From positions 1-64,000 of the forward strand of contig CAIRLC010000034.1 in NCBI GenBank assembly GCA_903879335.1: a stretch of DNA of 64,000 nucleotides, in the 5' to 3' direction. Both the position numbers and the translations under genes were made by a program. Origin of the DNA: an uncultured Pseudomonadota bacterium. GTDB lineage: Bacteria; Pseudomonadota; Gammaproteobacteria; Steroidobacterales; Steroidobacteraceae. Of the stretch, positions 16,359 to 59,844 are shown in pieces; the first letter of the stretch is position 1; each line of letters starts with the position of its first letter. The notes under the pieces are model-generated. The model made no database searches, was not told the origin of the DNA, and saw only the letters and a list, made by a program, of their open reading frames with translations.

Positions 16359-18272
16359 GTGTTGTCGATTGATCATCAAATTAGGCTCGCCTCAGAGCAC
16401 GTTCTGTCGGCCCTGGCGAAGCGGCCGTCTGCGCAGGCCGGGAGTCCGGCTTGGGGCCGATTTCAGGGGCGCTTTGAGCAGCATTTCCCGGCCTTGTTTC
16501 AGGAGTTATCGGCACTCTACGGAGAACGGGCTGACTTTTTAGACTTCATTGAAACCCTGCTCGTGACGGCTCTAGAGGCGTGGCAGGCACGTCCGGAGGA
16601 TCTAAAAGCGCTCGATCTCGCCCGTGAAGCAGATCCTCTGTGGTTTCAGTCCCAGAAGATGCTCGGCGGTGTCTGCTATGTCGACAAGTTCGCCGGCACC
16701 CTGAAAGGTATTGAAGCCCAGATTCCTTACTTTCAAGAATTGGGCCTAACGTACCTGCATCTGATGCCGTTGTTTAAGTGTCCGGAGGGTAATAGTGACG
16801 GTGGTTACGCCGTGTCCAGTTATCGTGAGGTGAATCCTGCGCTCGGCACGATGGACGATCTCCGTTCACTGACGCGCGCGCTGCGCGGCGCGGGGATCAG
16901 TCTCGTGCTGGACTTTATCTTCAACCACACCTCGGACGAACACGAATGGGCTCGCGGATGCGTGAGCGGGGCGCCGGAATATCAGGGTTTCTACCATATC
17001 TTTCCGGATCGGGGCCTGCCTGATCAATACGATCAGACCCTACGTGAGATCTTTCCCGACCAGCATCCCGGCGGCTTTTCGCAGTTGGCCGATGGTCGTT
17101 GGGTGTGGACCACGTTCAATTCTTTTCAGTGGGATTTGAATTACTCGAATCCAGCCGTTTTTACAGCGATGGCCGGTGAGATGCTGGCCATCGCCAACTT
17201 AGGCACTGCATTCCTGCGGATGGATGCGGTGGCTTTTGTTTGGAAGAAATTAGGTACAGCTTGCGAGAACCTGCCTGAAGCACACACCGTCATTCGCGCC
17301 TTTAGCGCGCTTGCGCGGATTGCCGCTCCCAGTTTGCTGTTCAAATCGGAAGCGATTGTTCACCCCGATGATGTGGTGAAGTACATTTCCTATCGTGAGT
17401 GCCAGATTTCCTACAACCCGCTACAAATGGCGCTGTTGTGGAACAGTCTCGCGACTCGCGAAGTGAATCTACTGCAGCAGGCGCTTGAGCAGCGACATAA
17501 CTTGGCTGCCGATACCGCCTGGGTTAACTACGTGCGCAGCCACGATGATATTGGCTGGACTTTCTCGGACGAGGACGCGGCACAGTTTGGGGTTGATGCG
17601 TTCCAGCATCGTCAATTTCTGAACCGCTTTTATGTCAATCGTTTCGAGGGTAGCTTCGCTCGCGGCGTGCCTTTTCAGGACAACCCGGTGACCGGGGACT
17701 GCCGGATCTGTGGAACGTGCGCGTCCTTGGCCGGCATAGAACAGGGCGATCCGCACGCGGTAGCGCGTCTCTTGCTGCTCTATAGCGTCGCGCTGTCGAG
17801 CGGCGGCATCCCATTGATCTACCTCGGTGACGAGGTGGGCGCCATGAATGATCACAGCTACTTGGATAACCCAGATCAGGCGATGGATAGCCGTTGGGTG
17901 CATCGGCCCGCCTATGATCCAGAGCGCTATTCAGACCGTCATAACCCAAACACCGTAGCCGGGCAGATATACGCGGGCCTGACTCGCATGATCGCCATTC
18001 GAAAGGCACATGCGGTCTTCGCGGGCGGTCATTTGAACGGCTTCAGGGCCGGTTCACGCAGCGTCTTGGCTTATACGCGTGGAGGTCATTCCGGTCATCT
18101 CCTCGCGCTCGCCAATTTCAGCGAATCCGTACAGCGGGTTCCTGCACACGTTCTGGCCGCGCAACCAGAAATCGCACAAGACTTACTGACGGGGCATCAA
18201 CACCGCCTGCGGGAAGGCTTGACGCTCGCGCCGTATCAGGTGGTTTGGCTCGATTGCAGCACGGCTAAATAG
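16359..18272 (+). CDS. amylosucrase (GH13_4)
   Basis: This 637-residue protein starts at GTG (a TTG follows at once). It makes an alpha-1,4-glucan from sucrose, releasing fructose; some relatives act mainly as sucrose hydrolases. The family signature [20 protein letters not shown] is present. The catalytic triad can be placed as Asp289 (LRMDAVAF), Glu331 (FKSEA) and Asp396 ([10 protein letters not shown]), each three positions from the well-studied Neisseria polysaccharea enzyme. Length and the N-terminal helical domain also match. No secretion signal is seen, so it should be cytoplasmic. No sucrose transporter or regulator gene is adjacent. Hydrolase and amylosucrase activity cannot be separated by eye. 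Confidence 0.93.
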
Positions 18273-51888: not shown

Positions 51889-53004
51889 ATGAGCGGTGAC
51901 CCACTCTGGGGTGATGCTGGCCTAACCGGTATTCTGGCTGCTTTCCAAGGCGGTGAACCCTTCGTGGTCCACGGTAGCCTCGACCGCCTCCCGGCGTGGA
52001 TGCAGTCCAAGGGCTTACAGTCGATCGACGGGTTGGATCGGCTGTATACCGGGCGCATTTTGCATGGCCGTCGCGACTGTGGGCCGCGCTCAACGTTGAT
52101 TCCACAGGGCTCTGTGGCCGCATTGATCGCGGCCGGTGAGGCCTTGTATCTGCCGGATGTTGCGGAGGCGATTCCTGGCGCAGCGGGCTGGCTTCGAGAC
52201 CTGGAGCAATCGCTGGGTATACCCGCCGGTAGCGCCCGAGCGACGGCTTGGGTTGCACCAGCCGGGGAGGGGACTGCGGAACACCTTGATGCTGAAGATG
52301 TCATCTCTATTCAGCTACTCGGCCGTAAATCTTTTGCCGTGGCTGAACCCGCAGCGATACCGTTCGCGGCGGGATTTCAATATGGCCCGGGGATACCGGC
52401 CGCGGCTGATCTCTATCCGCAAGCCGCACATGGTTTTCCAAAGGACGCAGAGTACACGACCGTCGACCTGCGGCCGGGCTCCCTCGTCGTGCTCCCGCGG
52501 GGCCATTGGCACCACACCCGCTGTCAGGAGGTGTCGATCGCCTTATCGATCATCCTGTCACCGCCCACCTTGCTGGATTGGATGCTGGGCGTGCTGCGTC
52601 ACCGGGGATTGGAAGAAACATTTTGGCGCCGCCCACTGTATGGGACGCCCGATGCGATGGCGTTCGCGCAGAGTGCCGAAAAGTTGAGCGTCATGGCGGC
52701 GGCGCTTGAAGCGGATTGCGCAGGCGGGCTTTGGAGCGATCGGACCACGCTGCAGTGGATACCGACGAAGATGATCGAGTACACCGACCGGTTCGAACTC
52801 ATCGATCGTTACGACGGTAGCCGACGCACGCTCGAGCCCATGGATCAGCTCAAGTTGTTTTTGACGTGGCAGGGTTCCCGTTCGAGCGCCTACACGGTGG
52901 CTGAGGCGCGCCGGGTGTTCGGGGCGCCGATCGATGCGCTGTTGCAGAGCTTGGTGCAGGCTGGAGCGCTCTATCGCTGGCCTGTGTCACGAGGGCAGAC
53001 TTGA
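51889..53004 (+). CDS. JmjC/cupin-like 2-oxoglutarate Fe(II) oxygenase
   Basis: This 371-residue protein has the cupin_4/RoxA-like layout. An N-terminal part ends in an active-site strand with TAEHLDAEDVISIQLLGRKSFAV (His132-x-Asp134). A second metal ligand sits in LPRGHWHHTRC (His206 or His208). These ligands bind Fe(II), and LGRKSFAV provides the strand that follows the HxD in this group. C-terminally a winged-helix-like dimerisation segment follows (YTVAEARRVFGAPIDALLQSLVQAGALYRW). RoxA hydroxylates ribosomal protein L16; this protein is a paralogue of that class with an unknown target. No signal peptide is present, so the target is modified in the cytoplasm. Confidence 0.78.
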   Translation: MSGDPLWGDAGLTGILAAFQGGEPFVVHGSLDRLPAWMQSKGLQSIDGLDRLYTGRILHGRRDCGPRSTLIPQGSVAALIAAGEALYLPDVAEAIPGAAGWLRDLEQSLGIPAGSARATAWVAPAGEGTAEHLDAEDVISIQLLGRKSFAVAEPAAIPFAAGFQYGPGIPAAADLYPQAAHGFPKDAEYTTVDLRPGSLVVLPRGHWHHTRCQEVSIALSIILSPPTLLDWMLGVLRHRGLEETFWRRPLYGTPDAMAFAQSAEKLSVMAAALEADCAGGLWSDRTTLQWIPTKMIEYTDRFELIDRYDGSRRTLEPMDQLKLFLTWQGSRSSAYTVAEARRVFGAPIDALLQSLVQAGALYRWPVSRGQT

Positions 53005-53439
53005 TCCCGAGGCTGTCGATCGCGTCATTGGGCGGCGCGCCAGTCCGACCCCAAGGCTGAACTTTCAGACTACGGCTGAACCTTCAGAATGGCGTGGTCT
53101 GCTTCGGCGCACGTGCATGTGGGCCTCGTGGTCGATCGAGTCCCGCTGCTGGTCATGACACCGCCACGCGACCCGTCGGTCTTTTTCGCGTGATGTACAG
53201 TACAAACCTCGGTCTCGACGCGCTAAGCATCTGGTTTTTAACTCGATTCTTCAAACTTGACAAAACTTTTCGGCTCCTTATGTGAAGTTCAGCAACATTT
53301 TGATGGGCTTGAAGCGCTAAAGTCCCGCATACCATTTTCAGAACAGTTTTCCGTGTGGCGAGTCTGAAAATTCCTGATTTGCGACCCCATCGACGATTTG
53401 GCGATATGCCGCTCGGCAGTGTCGTAAAGGAGAATTGCT
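53005..53439. other. intergenic region with the multicopper oxidase promoter
   Basis: No gene is seen in 435 bp. A -35 TTGACA (53257-53262), a 16-nt spacer and TATGTG (53279-53284) form a plausible promoter 155 bp upstream of the multicopper oxidase start. The long 5' leader this implies contains no obvious hairpin or riboswitch that I can recognise. Confidence 0.45.
53257..53284 (+). promoter_or_regulatory. probable promoter of the multicopper oxidase operon
   Basis: TTGACA, 16 bp, TATGTG. The -35 is perfect; the -10 matches the consensus TATAAT at the first three positions and deviates in the last three. It faces the oxidase gene with no other gene in between. Confidence 0.45.
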
Positions 53440-56400
53440 GTGCCTCATTTGACCCTGTTTGGTGCCCTCTCGTCCGTACTCAGAGCCTCGCGGGCGGGAT
53501 CGGGACTGGCATTGCTGACCGTCTTATCCGGCTTCGCTGTGGCGCCCGTCACCGTGGCCGCTCCGGGACGGGTCTGCTTAGATCCAACCCAGACTTTGGC
53601 CACCTGCACTGTGGGTACGATCGGAACCTATTACGCCAACAGTGAGTTGCCGAGGGTCGATCTCTCGACGGGTGCGGTCACCGGCGGCATCCGTAAGTTC
53701 ATCGATACGGTGCCGGGGTTGTCATCGGCTAACACCAATACATTTGCCAATCACGCGCCGGGCGAATACATCAGCGTCGCGGAGCCGGATCTCGTGTCCT
53801 ATCCCGGCGCGCAGACCTACGTGATGGCGGTCGTTGAGCACGTGCAGCGGATGCACAGCGACTTACCCAAAGACACGCTGCAACGCAGTTACGTCCAGTT
53901 GTATCCGAAACTCTCCGAGCGTCCAGCTGCCATGGGCAAATCGAATCCGCCGGTGAAGCCGACCTCCGTCTATGGGCTGCCGCTGCCGGCACCGCGCCTG
54001 TTGTCCGACGTAATCGCCTCGACAAGCCCGATCTACTGGCCGGGAACTCAGGAGCCGATTTATGCGATGGATACGCCACATTACCTGGGCCCGGTCATCC
54101 TTACCCAGAAGGGAGTGGCCGTTCGCGTCAAGATGATCAATTTACTGCCCGTCGGCGGGGCCACCACGACGGCTGATGCGCAAGGCAATCTGTCCGTCGT
54201 CGCGCGCAACGGCGACATCTTCATGCCCGTCGACGAGTCCTTGGGTGGTGCGGGTGAGAGCCCGGGGCCGGTGTCAGCAACTCAGTTGGTGGCTGGCGCG
54301 AAGTACACCATTGCAACGTTGGGGAGTACCGACTTCAAGACCGTGGGCGCGCCGAAGAATCAAGTCGGTCTCACGTTCACAGCTCTGGGCGCTGGGGTAG
54401 GGTCGGGCACGGCGGTGCCCAAATATTCGCAGACACGGGCGAGCTTTCATCTGCATGGTGGCGATAGCCCCTGGATCAGTGACGGCACCCCGCACCAGTG
54501 GATTGTTGCGGTGAACGACCCAACGCCCTATAAGCGCGGGGCCAGTGCGTACAGCGCACCCGATCAAGCGGATCCAGGCGATGGTCAGTACAACCTGTAT
54601 TGGCCGAACGATCAGTCATCACGGTTGATGTGGTACCACGATCACACCTTCGGTCTCACCCGCCAAAATGTATACGCGGGTGCAGCGGCCGGCTACATCA
54701 TCATCGACGCGGCCGAATTGGCGTTGCTGAACGGCGATGCAGCACTTGGCATCAATAAAGCGCTACCCGGCAGTCTGCTTGACCAGCTGGTTTTGGTGCT
54801 TCAGGACAAGACCTTCGTGCCCTCTGATATCGCGACCCAAGACGCGAAGTGGGATACCACGGCGTGGGGTGAGCCCGGTGACCTGTGGTACCCGCACGTG
54901 TACGAGCCTTTCCAGTTGTGGCAACCCAACGTGACGGCCGGCGCGAGTGAAGAGGCGGCATCCACGTTCAATCCAGCCGGTCGCTGGGACTATGCGATGG
55001 ATCCCAACGGGCTGTATCAGCCGCCGACGGGCTCCTTACGGCAGGATCCGGATTATGGTGCGGTCGCGTTCCCGGATGGTTCGTATTTCGGTGGTCCGTC
55101 AGCCACGCCGGAGTCCTATATGGACACGCCGATGGTCAACGGTGTGGCCTATCCGGTGATGAATGTCGAGCCAAAGGCCTATCGCGTTCGTTTCTTGAGC
55201 GCCGCCAATGATCGGTATTGGAATCTGTCGCTGTGGGTAGCCGACCCGACCGTCGTGACTCCAGATGGGCGCCACAATACAGAAATCAAAACTGTTCCCG
55301 CGACGGACGGACGTATCGGTGGTGTGCCCGATCCCACGACGGCCGGTCCTAATATCATTCAATTCGCCAATGAAGCGGGCTTCTTTCCCGCGCCGGTGGT
55401 CTTTCAGCCAAAGCCAATGTCTGGGGTGACGGATCCGAACGGCGAGTTGACGCTGGTACGTGGTCCCGGTGATTTCTATCTCGGCGGCGCAGAGCGCGCG
55501 GATACCGTGATCGATTTCTCTCAGTACGCGGGCAAGACCTTGATTCTGTATAACGATTCATCAGCGCCTGTGCCGGGCGGTGATCCGCGTTACGACTATT
55601 ACACCAACGATCCGGACATGACGCCGTATGGCGGCGCGCCAAGCACGCTGCCGGGCTACGGTCCGAATACGCGCACGGTTATGCAGATCCGTGTGGCGGC
55701 GACGCTCGCTGGCGGTGCTCCGGCTGCGGCGGCTTATGACGCCCGCGGAACGGGCGGCGCATTGGCGACGGAGTTGCCGAAGGCTTATGCGATCGGTAGC
55801 GATGCGCATGTGGGCCTAATGGCCGGTGGCTATGACCCAGCAACGACGACACTCACCTTGAATGACGGCACTCAATTGTCACCGACGTCAGCGCCACTGT
55901 CGCTGAAGGTGAAGACGATCGAGGGCTACACCGATCCCACCTTCGGCCGCTTGATTGCGCAGATCGGCTCGGAATTGCCGCAGGCCGCAGCAAGTACGGT
56001 GGTCGCAAGCGGCGGCACGCCGATCGCCTATGTCGACAAGCCAACGGATATTGTCAGCGAAGGCGAGCTGCAGTACTGGGTCATCAAGAACAATGATACC
56101 GATAATCATCCGATGCACTTCCATCTGTTCAACGTGCAGGTGATCGGCCGCTGGGACACATTGAACAACGTATTTGTACAGCCGCAACCCGATGAGCTCG
56201 GTTGGAAAGAAACCGTGAAGAACTGGCCTGGCGAGGATGTGTTCGTGGCCTTGAAGCCCAAGACGCCAGCACTGCCCTTCGGACTGCCGAAGAGCCAGCG
56301 ACTGATGGATCCGACGCTACCGGCGGGGGCAACGTTATCGGCCGCGCCCCGCGCCGGCGGTGATGGAACGTTCGCGTTTTCTCAGTTCGATGTCACCACG

Positions 56401-57822
56401 GGCGCTCCATTGCCGGTGGGTACCGTGCAGGGCAACGAGATGGTTGACTACGATTGGGAGTACGTCTGGCACTGCCATATCTTGGGTCACGAAGAAAATG
56501 ACTTGATGCACCCCATGGTCTACAAGCCGCTCGTTTCCCAGCCGGGGGCACCGACCGCCGTGACGGTGACCTCGAACGCCAAGGTTCTGTGGACCGATGC
56601 GACGCCGGCGTTTGCCCTGACGACCAAGGGTAACGCCACGAACGAGTACGGTTTCTTGGTGGAGCGTGCGCCGATCGTCAATGGCGTGACCCAATCCTTC
56701 GTCGCCTTGCCGCCGGCGCCCGGTGTAGCCGTTGCCGGAGTCAACACACTCGCGAATGCCACGGCGTATCAGGATTCGGTGCCTTCGGCGACGACGGATT
56801 ACCAGTATCGAGTCACAGCAGTGAATGCCGCTGGGGCGACTCCGGCGGCGGTGAGCCCTGTGCTGCATCAGGGTCCGGCGGCACCGACCGGCTTGGCGGC
56901 TTCCAAGGTTTTTGTACCGGCCTCCAGTGCCGTGTCTGTGAACCTGTCGTGGATCGACAATGCCAGTAATGAAACCGGCTACCGCGTGTCCCGCGACGGC
57001 GTCGTTATCGCGACGCTGGGCGCGAACGCATCGTCTTACACGGACACCCTGACCGGCATCACGTCGGCCAATGCCAATGTCGCGCGGACTTACAGAGTTG
57101 TCGCTTACAACTCAACGGCCAGTGCGTCGGTGGCTCAAGCCCTCAACGTCACGCCGGGCGTGAGCCTTGCGGCGCCATCGGCGCTCACCGCCGCCTTGGG
57201 TGGTACGGCAGCGGCGCCGACCGTATCGCTCAGCTGGGTTGATCAGTCGGTGGGCGAGTCGGGTTATGCCGTTTCGCGCGCCACCGGATTGGTCCACGCC
57301 ACAACCGGCGTAATCACCTGGGGTGCGGCATCACGTTTAGCGGCCGCCGGCCGCGGAGCATCGACGACATTGACGGCCAATGAGGCGGCGTTTACCGACA
57401 GTACGGCAACCAAAGACCAGATTTACCAGTACACCGTTACGGCGTTGAATGGCACGGCAGCGGGTCCCGCCGCGTCGTTGACGCAAATGACGAGTACTAC
57501 ACTGGATACGCCGACGCAATTTGCCTCCGGCGGTCAGGCCTCGGCAACCACGGGCATCAAGATCCAGTGGCAGGCTTCAGTCTCAGGGCTCGCAACGGGC
57601 TATGTTGTGGAGCGCTGCCTTGCGCTCACCCCCACAAGTTGCACGGCGACGACGGGAACCTGGACGGCGCTTGCGACCGTTGCCGGTCGCGTGACGCAAA
57701 AGGTCACCGATCTTGCGGTGTCTGCCAAGACGAGCTACGCCTACCGCATGCGTGCGATCAGTGCGCTCTCCGCGAGTCTTAAGTCGCCTGACACAACGGT
57801 GCTGACGATTAAGGTACCCTGA
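53440..57822 (+). CDS. giant exported multicopper oxidase with C-terminal fibronectin-III domains
   Basis: This 1460-residue protein starts at GTG 53440 with AAGGAG upstream. The signal peptide (ALLTVLSGFAVAPVTVAAPG) is followed by a multicopper oxidase core carrying all four copper motifs. FHLHGGDSPWISDG lies near 336, WYHDHTFGLTRQNVYAG near 398, DNHPMHFHLFNVQVIG near 888 and VWHCHILGHEENDLMHP near 1009. From about 1030 to the end are four fibronectin type III-like domains (for example LSWIDNASNETGYRVSRDG, LSWVDQSVGESGYAVSRAT). An insert of about 48 residues (54271-54414) resembles modules of phage tail proteins. The size and the adjacent cytochrome resemble the MofA group of putative Mn(II) oxidases, but the substrate is unproven. 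Confidence 0.87.
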   Translation: MPHLTLFGALSSVLRASRAGSGLALLTVLSGFAVAPVTVAAPGRVCLDPTQTLATCTVGTIGTYYANSELPRVDLSTGAVTGGIRKFIDTVPGLSSANTNTFANHAPGEYISVAEPDLVSYPGAQTYVMAVVEHVQRMHSDLPKDTLQRSYVQLYPKLSERPAAMGKSNPPVKPTSVYGLPLPAPRLLSDVIASTSPIYWPGTQEPIYAMDTPHYLGPVILTQKGVAVRVKMINLLPVGGATTTADAQGNLSVVARNGDIFMPVDESLGGAGESPGPVSATQLVAGAKYTIATLGSTDFKTVGAPKNQVGLTFTALGAGVGSGTAVPKYSQTRASFHLHGGDSPWISDGTPHQWIVAVNDPTPYKRGASAYSAPDQADPGDGQYNLYWPNDQSSRLMWYHDHTFGLTRQNVYAGAAAGYIIIDAAELALLNGDAALGINKALPGSLLDQLVLVLQDKTFVPSDIATQDAKWDTTAWGEPGDLWYPHVYEPFQLWQPNVTAGASEEAASTFNPAGRWDYAMDPNGLYQPPTGSLRQDPDYGAVAFPDGSYFGGPSATPESYMDTPMVNGVAYPVMNVEPKAYRVRFLSAANDRYWNLSLWVADPTVVTPDGRHNTEIKTVPATDGRIGGVPDPTTAGPNIIQFANEAGFFPAPVVFQPKPMSGVTDPNGELTLVRGPGDFYLGGAERADTVIDFSQYAGKTLILYNDSSAPVPGGDPRYDYYTNDPDMTPYGGAPSTLPGYGPNTRTVMQIRVAATLAGGAPAAAAYDARGTGGALATELPKAYAIGSDAHVGLMAGGYDPATTTLTLNDGTQLSPTSAPLSLKVKTIEGYTDPTFGRLIAQIGSELPQAAASTVVASGGTPIAYVDKPTDIVSEGELQYWVIKNNDTDNHPMHFHLFNVQVIGRWDTLNNVFVQPQPDELGWKETVKNWPGEDVFVALKPKTPALPFGLPKSQRLMDPTLPAGATLSAAPRAGGDGTFAFSQFDVTTGAPLPVGTVQGNEMVDYDWEYVWHCHILGHEENDLMHPMVYKPLVSQPGAPTAVTVTSNAKVLWTDATPAFALTTKGNATNEYGFLVERAPIVNGVTQSFVALPPAPGVAVAGVNTLANATAYQDSVPSATTDYQYRVTAVNAAGATPAAVSPVLHQGPAAPTGLAASKVFVPASSAVSVNLSWIDNASNETGYRVSRDGVVIATLGANASSYTDTLTGITSANANVARTYRVVAYNSTASASVAQALNVTPGVSLAAPSALTAALGGTAAAPTVSLSWVDQSVGESGYAVSRATGLVHATTGVITWGAASRLAAAGRGASTTLTANEAAFTDSTATKDQIYQYTVTALNGTAAGPAASLTQMTSTTLDTPTQFASGGQASATTGIKIQWQASVSGLATGYVVERCLALTPTSCTATTGTWTALATVAGRVTQKVTDLAVSAKTSYAYRMRAISALSASLKSPDTTVLTIKVP

Positions 57823-57827
57823 GGTCT

Positions 57828-59597
57828 ATGACCGCCCGCACGACGCCTCTCTGGGTGCTCCTTGGAATCGTCGTGGCGGGTGGCCTCGGGCTCAGTCTCG
57901 CTTTGCCGAGCCAAGCTGCCACGGATGTCGAGCGCTTGGGCCGCAGTATCTACGAGCGGGGTGACTGGCCTTCCGGTCAGCCTATCCGCGCCACCTACGG
58001 CGTCGATACGCCGGTTGAAGGCCGTGCGGCCGCCTGTGTGAATTGCCATCGTCCGTCGGGTCTAGGCAGTGTCGAAGGTCAATCAATCGTGCCGCCCATC
58101 ACGGGGCGCGCCCTGTTCGGCGGGGGCGCGCCTGTGATCGTTCGCGCAGATCGATTGCAGTCCCGTGGTGTCGCGAAGACCCACGAGCCGTACTCCTTAG
58201 ACGAATTCAGCCGAATCCTCGCGGATGGCAGGACGCCAGACGGCCAGAACATCAGTGCGCTCATGCCGCGCTATTCATTCACGCAGACCGAAACAGAGGC
58301 GCTCGCGGCGTACCTCCAAACGCTCTCCACCGATCTCTCTCCTGGTGTCGACGACACGGTCATCCACCTGGCGACCGTCATTACTCCTGGAAATACTGAG
58401 TCGAGGAAAACGGCATTTTTGTTGACCTTGAAGGCGCTCGTTGCGCAATTGAATGTCACGTCCCGACCAACACTTCGCCAAAAAGCATCGCCATTTGATC
58501 GCCGCTATGGCTCACATCGGCAGTGGGAGTTGGCCATTTGGTCGTTGAATGGGCCTTCGAATACGTGGGCGGAACAGTTGCGGCATTTCCAAGCGAAACA
58601 GCCTGTATTCGCCGTGGTTTCCGGCCTTGGCGATACGGAGTGGCAACCCGTGCAGGATTTTTGTGATGCCGAACAGGTTCCGTGTTGGTTTCCAAGCCTG
58701 AATGCGGCACCTTTGAATGCGGCAGACAGTCGTTATGCCTTTTATTTCTCGGCTGGTATCGGCACTGAATCGAGCGTCCTTGCGCAACGTTTCGCCGCGA
58801 TGGGCGGGAAGGTGGTCCAGGTGGTCGGCGCGACCTCTGCGGCAGCGGAGGGCGCCAAGCGGCTGCGGGCGGGGCTGAATGCGTCGGATCGATTGGTCGA
58901 ATTCAAGATCACCGCCGCCGGTCTCATGACGGACCTGGCTAGTCTCAGGGAGTCTGACGCGATCGTCTTTTGGCTGACCCCTGCAGAGCTCCAGTCGTTA
59001 CGTTTCACGGCCAAGCTCAGAGCGTCGAGTTATTTATCCTCGACCCTTGGAATGACGGAGACAGTCGATTTGCCCCAGGCATTGGGCGCGACATCGTTGA
59101 TCCAGCTGGAAGAGACACCGGATCTGAGGGCGAATAATCTTGAGCGACTGCAGACTTGGTTGAGCGCTTCCAATATCCCGGTTGTGGATTTGCGCATGCA
59201 GTCCGAGGTGCGCTTTGCCGTCCGATATCTGGCCAGTTCAGTGCGTTCCATGCTGAGTAACCTCTACACGCCTTATCTCGTTGAGCGCGGCGAGACGATG
59301 ATCGGGTCCTTCGAAGCCATGGCGGTCAATGATGAGGTGATGGCGTTGCAGATGGGTCCCGTGAATAAGCGTCCTTTGTCGGATACGTTACTCAGTGCCG
59401 ATAGCCTCGGCCGGATTGAGCGCGCGCGGGAGCATCTGGACGACATGCGTGCCCGCGGTGGCACCACGGTCTATCCAAGATTGTCGCTGGGTGTCGGCCA
59501 ACGGTTCGCATCAAAAGGCGCCTATGTCGAACCGTTAAGACCAAACGTAAACGGCGCGATATCACCTGAGTGGGTTGTTGCCGAACTCGTCCATTGA
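57828..59597 (+). CDS. cytochrome c / periplasmic-binding-protein type 1 fusion
   Basis: This 589-residue protein starts at ATG 57828, 6 bp after the oxidase stop. A signal peptide (TTPLWVLLGIVVAGGLGLSLAL) precedes a monoheme cytochrome c domain with CVNCH at 70-74 and a likely axial Met in ALMPRYSFT near 145. Residues about 200-560 match the type 1 periplasmic-binding fold of amino-acid ABC substrate-binding proteins, but no permease or ATPase gene is present. The domain pairing and operon position suggest an electron acceptor or adaptor for the multicopper oxidase; this is inference. Binding-protein ligand residues could not be checked. Confidence 0.8.
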   Translation: MTARTTPLWVLLGIVVAGGLGLSLALPSQAATDVERLGRSIYERGDWPSGQPIRATYGVDTPVEGRAAACVNCHRPSGLGSVEGQSIVPPITGRALFGGGAPVIVRADRLQSRGVAKTHEPYSLDEFSRILADGRTPDGQNISALMPRYSFTQTETEALAAYLQTLSTDLSPGVDDTVIHLATVITPGNTESRKTAFLLTLKALVAQLNVTSRPTLRQKASPFDRRYGSHRQWELAIWSLNGPSNTWAEQLRHFQAKQPVFAVVSGLGDTEWQPVQDFCDAEQVPCWFPSLNAAPLNAADSRYAFYFSAGIGTESSVLAQRFAAMGGKVVQVVGATSAAAEGAKRLRAGLNASDRLVEFKITAAGLMTDLASLRESDAIVFWLTPAELQSLRFTAKLRASSYLSSTLGMTETVDLPQALGATSLIQLEETPDLRANNLERLQTWLSASNIPVVDLRMQSEVRFAVRYLASSVRSMLSNLYTPYLVERGETMIGSFEAMAVNDEVMALQMGPVNKRPLSDTLLSADSLGRIERAREHLDDMRARGGTTVYPRLSLGVGQRFASKGAYVEPLRPNVNGAISPEWVVAELVH

Positions 59598-59643
59598 CTC
59601 AGCCGCATGGCGGCACCACTCTTAGATCAAGATAAGGAAATAG

Positions 59644-59844
59644 ATGATGTTCAAGCATATTTTCAGCGCAGTACTTTTGGTGCTCGCGACATCCACGGCG
59701 ATTGCTCAAAGCGCGCCGACTCCACGTGCCGACGCGCACAAGAGCTACGACGACAAGATTCGCGAGTGCCGTAAGCTCGGCGCTGAGCAGGGACTGAGCG
59801 GTGAAGCCTTGCGCGCCTACGTGACGGACTGTGCTCGACGCTAA
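59644..59844 (+). CDS. small secreted PsiF-like protein
   Basis: This 66-residue protein starts with ATG behind AAGGAAAT. A signal peptide (IFSAVLLVLATSTAIAQS) is followed by YDDKIRECRKLGAEQGLSGEALRAYVTDCARR. The two cysteines and the KLGAEQGLSGEALRAY pattern resemble the repeat in PsiF phosphate-starvation proteins, here as a single repeat. The function is unknown. It lies 46 bp after the cytochrome fusion gene and could be the last gene of that operon. The similarity is weak, so this is a tentative family call. Confidence 0.55.
   Translation: MMFKHIFSAVLLVLATSTAIAQSAPTPRADAHKSYDDKIRECRKLGAEQGLSGEALRAYVTDCARR

Follow-up and report, generated by a model that had tools for sequence, protein, structure and literature searches.

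A probable MofA/OmpB-type operon of the Steroidobacteraceae that combines a large multicopper oxidase with a MofC-like cytochrome and a PsiF-like protein

Multicopper oxidases (MCOs) accept single electrons at a type-1 copper and reduce O2 at a trinuclear site. The MofA/OmpB group consists of large secreted copper enzymes that are suspected of manganese or iron oxidation. MofABC is described from Leptothrix discophora and L. cholodnii, with homologues in Gallionellaceae and Rubrivivax (PMC5566968, PMC8218464). The functions of the mofABC products have been described as unverified for MofA itself (PMC5566968), and for Leptothrix ochracea Fe has been considered as another possible substrate (PMC11412304). 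He et al. (2017, PMC5566968) described the MofC-like proteins of OmpB/MofA clusters as combining a cytochrome c with a periplasmic-binding domain; in the same clusters mofB encodes a peptidyl-prolyl isomerase, and SCO1/SenC is found nearby in some (PMC5566968). MnxG of P. putida GB-1 is a genetically supported Mn oxidase, the operon of which lists an ‘ABC transporter substrate-binding protein, cytochrome c domain’ as well as two SCO1/SenC proteins and a SurA-domain chaperone (PMC11409713). In pseudomonads, cytochrome c maturation genes are reported to be involved in Mn oxidation (PMC11409713). The copper motifs are reported to be ordered A-B-C-D in MofA and CotA and in the opposite direction in MnxG (PMC3618234).

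The window, which is the whole stretch of 64,000 nucleotides that was analysed, derives from an uncultured member of the Steroidobacteraceae and contains a trio of genes encoding a mofA-like MCO, a mofC-like protein and a PsiF-like protein (Table 1). The MCO and mofC-like ORFs are separated by 5 nt, a correction to the 6 bp given in a sequence-only reading of the window. A promoter scan of the locus gave nothing above chance. A second species of the genus (locus L063, genome G009) has the trio in the same order, and the arrangement is therefore not a matter of chance. One side of the operon is flanked by FeoB, UppP, an MFS transporter and CstA, of which CstA was checked by Pfam and the others were named from the sequence by eye. 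The same block, inverted, adjoins the operon in G009, and this shared synteny points to vertical inheritance. A JmjC_2/Cupin_8 protein (window 51889-53004) lies between CstA and the operon; it is not between them in G009. Both main genes are under purifying selection, with dN/dS values of ~0.2 for the MCO and ~0.3 for MofC, ratios that are rough given that dS is saturated.

Table 1. Positions in the window of the three genes and of the features within them.
Feature	Position	Strand	Remark
Shine-Dalgarno-like AAGGAG of mofA-like gene	53427..53432	+	from sequence
mofA-like multicopper oxidase, 1460 aa, Leu-type sub-clade	53440..57822	+	GTG start; ORF
Copper motif A HLHGG, residues 337-341	54448..54462	+	
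Copper motif B WYHDH, residues 398-402	54631..54645	+	
Copper motif C HPMHFH, residues 890-895	56107..56124	+	clade-specific K883, N884, D886, N889 just before
Copper motif D HCHILGHEENDLM, residues 1011-1023	56470..56508	+	type-1 axial position Leu1022 (nt 56503-56505)
C-terminal tail, FN3-like repeats, ~residues 1040-1460	56557..57819	+	weak profile matches and by eye
mofC-like gene, 589 aa, N-terminal monoheme cytochrome c and type-I periplasmic-binding-protein domain	57828..59597	+	
Haem c motif CVNCH, residues 70-74 of MofC-like protein	58035..58049	+	
Met146 of MofC-like protein, likely distal haem ligand	nt 58263-58265	+	invariant over 38 family members
PsiF-like small protein (predicted secreted), 66 aa	59644..59844	+	kept in Leu sub-type

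The MCO contains all four copper motifs, as the sequence-only reading had recognised, and these are arranged in the order A-B-C-D. Its first ~40 residues are likely to form a Sec signal peptide, as judged by eye. The C-terminal copper domain is recognised by the Pfam family Cu-oxidase_2 above the cut-off (4.9e-11), whereas Cu-oxidase_3 scores below it; a search of the organism's own genome with PF00394 gave no match, as the family is too divergent for this model. An AF2 model of residues 37-1052 is of moderate quality (pLDDT 72.6) and matches the folds of CotA laccase and bilirubin oxidase, the nearest solved structures (TMt ~0.8, E ~1e-33). The tail had been read as four fibronectin-III domains. 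Its FN3-like character is weakly supported, by one sub-threshold fn3 match and one match to a Contactin-1 FN3 at E 0.001, and the number four is a reading by eye. The paralogue of the window MCO (see below) has two fn3 stretches at a relaxed threshold, and a Phe-type relative from the same genus (L064) has seven clear ones.

The window MCO very probably belongs to the MofA/OmpB group, judging from its sequence and gene neighbours. In a tree of copper domains it is placed with Geomonas/Geobacter and mofABC-type proteins, among the large MCOs and outside the short CotA-like ones; this comparison, proposed earlier as a check on the oxidase, was made with a reference set without Leptothrix MofA and in which GSU1394 was not identified by name. 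The link to Leptothrix MofA and G. sulfurreducens OmpB is accordingly drawn from what the clusters contain, from the order of the motifs and from the papers cited. For CotA and bilirubin oxidase the comparison was one of structure and profile; both stand outside the tree, the short MCOs of which are CotA-like. They share the cupredoxin fold and motif order with the window MCO, but have ~500 aa and a Met axial residue as opposed to 1460 aa and Leu1022, and we know of no MofC partner for either.

High-potential laccases also have an axial Leu, and non-Met axial residues occur in phenol-oxidising laccases. A non-coordinating axial Leu is expected to raise the type-1 potential; in Botrytis aclada laccase the reverse substitution, L499M, was reported to lower it by 140 mV (PMC4220974). 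The residue is compatible with Mn(II) oxidation and not diagnostic of it. Together with the structural matches to CotA and bilirubin oxidase, it could indicate a high-potential laccase or phenol oxidase acting on humic or lignin-derived aromatics, with metals incidental. The grouping of the MCO core with large MofA/OmpB-type enzymes rather than short CotA-like ones, and cluster partners of the kind seen with suspected or genetically supported metal oxidases, make such an enzyme unlikely.

The window shares with MofABC a very large, probably exported MCO, the motif order A-B-C-D and a MofC that has a cytochrome c and a periplasmic-binding domain. It differs in the lack of mofB (FKBP) between the genes and of SCO, in the added PsiF-like gene, and in the axial residue, which is Leu in the window and Phe in the mofB-bearing proteobacterial relatives. 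Since mofB is missing, the operon is not a copy of mofABC. The earlier likening to the Leptothrix mof genes therefore stands for the pairing of a MofA/OmpB-type MCO with a MofC-type neighbour (PMC5566968), but does not extend to the full gene set. The OmpB cluster of Geobacter sulfurreducens resembles the window in its large MCO, which has FN3 where the window MCO has an FN3-like tail, in its distant mofC homologue and in the absence of mofB, but has SCO1/SenC (PMC5566968); in the window the oxidase and mofC are directly adjacent, and the MCO is without the EXXE motif invoked for OmpB. In Geobacter the reduction of Fe(III) oxide depends on OmpB, the characterised FN3-bearing relative, whose cluster includes a distant mofC homologue (PMC5566968). 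As named Geobacteraceae loci also fall in the same MCO group, the window enzyme might make contact with Fe(III) minerals instead of oxidising a metal. This appears improbable, although the missing EXXE is a weak argument against it, given that several Geobacteraceae relatives lack the motif as well. The mnxG operon of P. putida GB-1 is similar in having an MCO with a cytochrome c/ABC-substrate-binding protein, a likeness by annotation only, whereas MnxG-type MCOs have motifs C and D at the N-terminus (PMC3618234).

A scan of genome contigs gave 80 named loci with relatives of the window oxidase, including Geomonas, Geobacter, Methylococcales, Holophagaceae, Neobacillus and Micromonospora. The loci are mostly from metagenome-assembled genomes, where the gene calls are simple ORFs, and every tree was built by a quick method, with branch support from SH-aLRT alone. 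The type-1 axial residue across these relatives is Met, Phe or Leu. In a tree of 104 MCO cores the eight Leu rows form a single clade (100% SH-aLRT), which is nested among large MCOs beside a group with mofA-mofB-mofC(-SCO) clusters, the short CotA-like MCOs lying outside. With three clusters that were found later and are outside this tree (L291-L293), 11 Leu-type MCOs are known here, including the paralogue in the organism's own genome (L061), and 10 of them have mofC. The Leu clade is set apart from the rest by 23 residues, several of which lie near motif C (883-889) and motif B (409, 411). His884 and Gly886, invariant in the other sub-types, are replaced by Asn and Asp.

The MofC proteins of all 10 Leu-type clusters similarly form one clade (100% SH-aLRT, tree of 64 MofC proteins), and both trees split a Methylococcaceae trio from the rest of the Leu clade. 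These matching clades indicate that the pair has been inherited together. As the Leu types are one clade, the ten clusters represent one evolutionary event and not ten independent ones. The start of mofC within them ranges from 40 nt before the end of the oxidase ORF to 101 nt beyond it. Neither mofB nor SCO was found near mofC in any of the 10, whereas of 22 mofC genes that adjoin a Phe-type MCO, a count in which L107 and L296 represent one and the same locus, 17 have mofB. The Phe-type clusters contain a Mip/FKBP isomerase, and the proteobacterial ones are arranged mofA-mofB-mofC. The MCO–MofC partnership recurs in loci of Pseudomonadota, Holophagaceae/Acidobacteriota and Geobacteraceae. A chance neighbourhood of unrelated genes, to which nothing beyond the mofC-less paralogue L061 lends itself, has next to no probability in view of the repeated pairing, the congruent clades and the conserved order, and was rejected on the basis of this cluster survey.

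The PsiF-like gene follows mofC in eight of the 10 Leu-type clusters; it is not present in L172, and L147 stops at the contig end. It also follows the mofC-less MCO of L061, and was found at none of the 22 mofC genes beside Phe-type MCOs. A Pfam search with the window protein itself gave no match. Its homologues in L152 and L123 match PsiF_repeat weakly and below the cut-off (E 0.014 and 0.036), which agrees with the earlier description of a small PsiF-like protein downstream. A search of the open literature for a multicopper oxidase together with PsiF returned nothing relevant. The window operon thus belongs to an established kind of system, and its novelty lies in the sub-type. From the gene and residue comparisons, this is a previously unremarked form that keeps MofC, is without mofB and SCO in the cluster, adds a PsiF-like gene and has an altered copper site.

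The MofC-like protein matches the Pfam family Cytochrom_C just above the cut-off and Peripla_BP_6 weakly. A phmmer search against PDB sequences returned nothing, so that fold comparison was needed. The AF2 model is good (pLDDT 88) and matches type-I periplasmic-binding folds, namely branched-chain amino-acid-binding proteins and receptor ligand domains. A cytochrome c fused to a binding-protein-type domain had been correctly read from the window. The fusion without a permease had been thought unusual; it is the norm of the MofC family in the cluster survey and is described in OmpB/MofA clusters (PMC5566968). The earlier interpretation is, overall, partly supported. The window MofC sits on a long end branch of 0.99, where the rest of the Leu clade ranges from 0.07 to 0.64; the window oxidase has a short one (0.08). 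Decay of the protein is nevertheless not supported, as only 2 of 58 family-conserved residues are changed. In a plasmid collection, MofC-like genes were found on Cupriavidus and Paraburkholderia megaplasmids; the same collection gave no MofA-type MCO, just weak short MCO matches. Pairs of SCO and mofC-like genes adjoin giant proteins that are not of the MofA type in L075, L077, L079-L082, L084, L085 and L087-L093. The giant neighbour in L090 has a T1-like motif, HCHFYPHFAAGM, and the other such neighbours are without a copper-oxidase Pfam match; the enzymes beside these pairs may be undescribed.

Where mofC homologues lie away from a MofA-type MCO, 17 of 18 adjoin an SCO1/SenC-like gene, which favours a role in assembly. 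MofC could then be mainly a maturation factor, with its haem and binding domain helping the copper loading or redox state of the exported oxidase, in a module with SCO chaperones and peptidyl-prolyl isomerases. The isomerase of the Phe-type clusters and the composition of the P. putida mnxG operon (SCO, SCO, cytochrome/binding protein, SurA) are consistent with this. The Leu-type clusters, however, keep MofC with neither SCO nor mofB beside it, which makes it independent of local maturation genes and favours a direct MCO–MofC partnership. Other parts of the organism's own genome encode SCO proteins and one FKBP_N protein, so their absence from the operon does not equate to absence from the cell. 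Maturation as the main role of MofC is considered somewhat unlikely.

The same genome encodes a second Leu-type oxidase, 72% identical to that of the window (contig C36, L061:13243-17625). This gene is directly after cmk, has no mofC beside it and is followed by its own PsiF-like ORF (17902-18117). There is only one MofC gene in the genome. A third oxidase is Phe-type and of 2653 aa (contig C4, L062:841-8802); its motif-A-like HxHG at residue 268 is far from motif B (1429), which suggests a large insert. In G009 a mofA-mofB-mofC cluster (L064), separate from the orthologue of the window operon, encodes a 1937-aa MCO, an FKBP_N/FKBP_C protein and a cytochrome/binding protein. Beta-proteobacterial loci contain a second MofA-like protein in tandem after mofA (L102:4404-11141, L103:14304-19196, L104:15032-22255 and L301:2321-8209). 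These proteins match the MCO profile with good scores, and the three that were placed in the tree fall in a single 100% clade, yet where aligned their copper motifs are lost, HLHGG becoming HLVGG and YHDH becoming YQDR or IQDR. In L103 HPxHFH is also changed to NSMHFN and HCHxxxH to NSAxxxS. The tandem protein is apparently a copper-free partner subunit.

The preferred reading, with a probability of roughly 0.55, is that the window holds a streamlined sub-type of the MofA/OmpB operon (MCO, MofC, PsiF-like protein) that is metal-oxidising, with MofC as the redox partner. For the window MCO taken on its own, the prospects of metal oxidation are about even, and Mn(II) oxidation is possible. The exported MCO would withdraw single electrons from a reduced substrate at the type-1 copper, with O2 reduced to water at the trinuclear cluster, and the most likely class of substrate would be a metal ion outside the cell, Mn(II) or Fe(II). 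As the type-1 surroundings of the Leu clade differ (axial Leu, Asn, Asp), the substrate may differ from that of MofA. The FN3-like tail may tether the MCO to the surface, matrix or a mineral. MofC would be a dedicated periplasmic redox partner, its binding-protein domain recognising a small ligand or the MCO itself, and would either carry electrons onward from the oxidase into the respiratory chain or serve in redox and copper maturation of the oxidase.

The role of MofC is thus most likely that of an electron partner or of redox assembly, two roles that are not separable by sequence alone. The MCO has its own oxygen-reducing site and would need no cytochrome for turnover, which speaks against a partner role; similarly, the paralogue with no adjoining mofC suggests that the MCO may not need MofC, unless the two oxidases share the single MofC. 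The cytochrome partner is nonetheless the strongest clue, as it is kept where other helpers are absent and a gene of like annotation is present in the mnxG operon. A further reading, regarded as quite unlikely, is that Leu-type MCO, MofC and PsiF-like protein are a minimal self-contained set for extracellular metal oxidation. In that case the retained MofC and the type-1 site, which is altered and probably of high potential, would allow electrons taken from Mn(II) or Fe(II) to be routed via a ligand-sensing cytochrome to the cell and not only to O2 at the enzyme.

The operon bears on the questions of which enzyme oxidises manganese in most environmental bacteria and of what the accompanying haem protein does. 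MofC is the sole partner to persist in clusters without mofB and SCO, and the dissimilar oxidase MnxG is accompanied by a gene of like annotation. The Leu/Phe/Met split at the type-1 copper provides a simple sequence marker for the sub-types and a testable prediction of redox potential.
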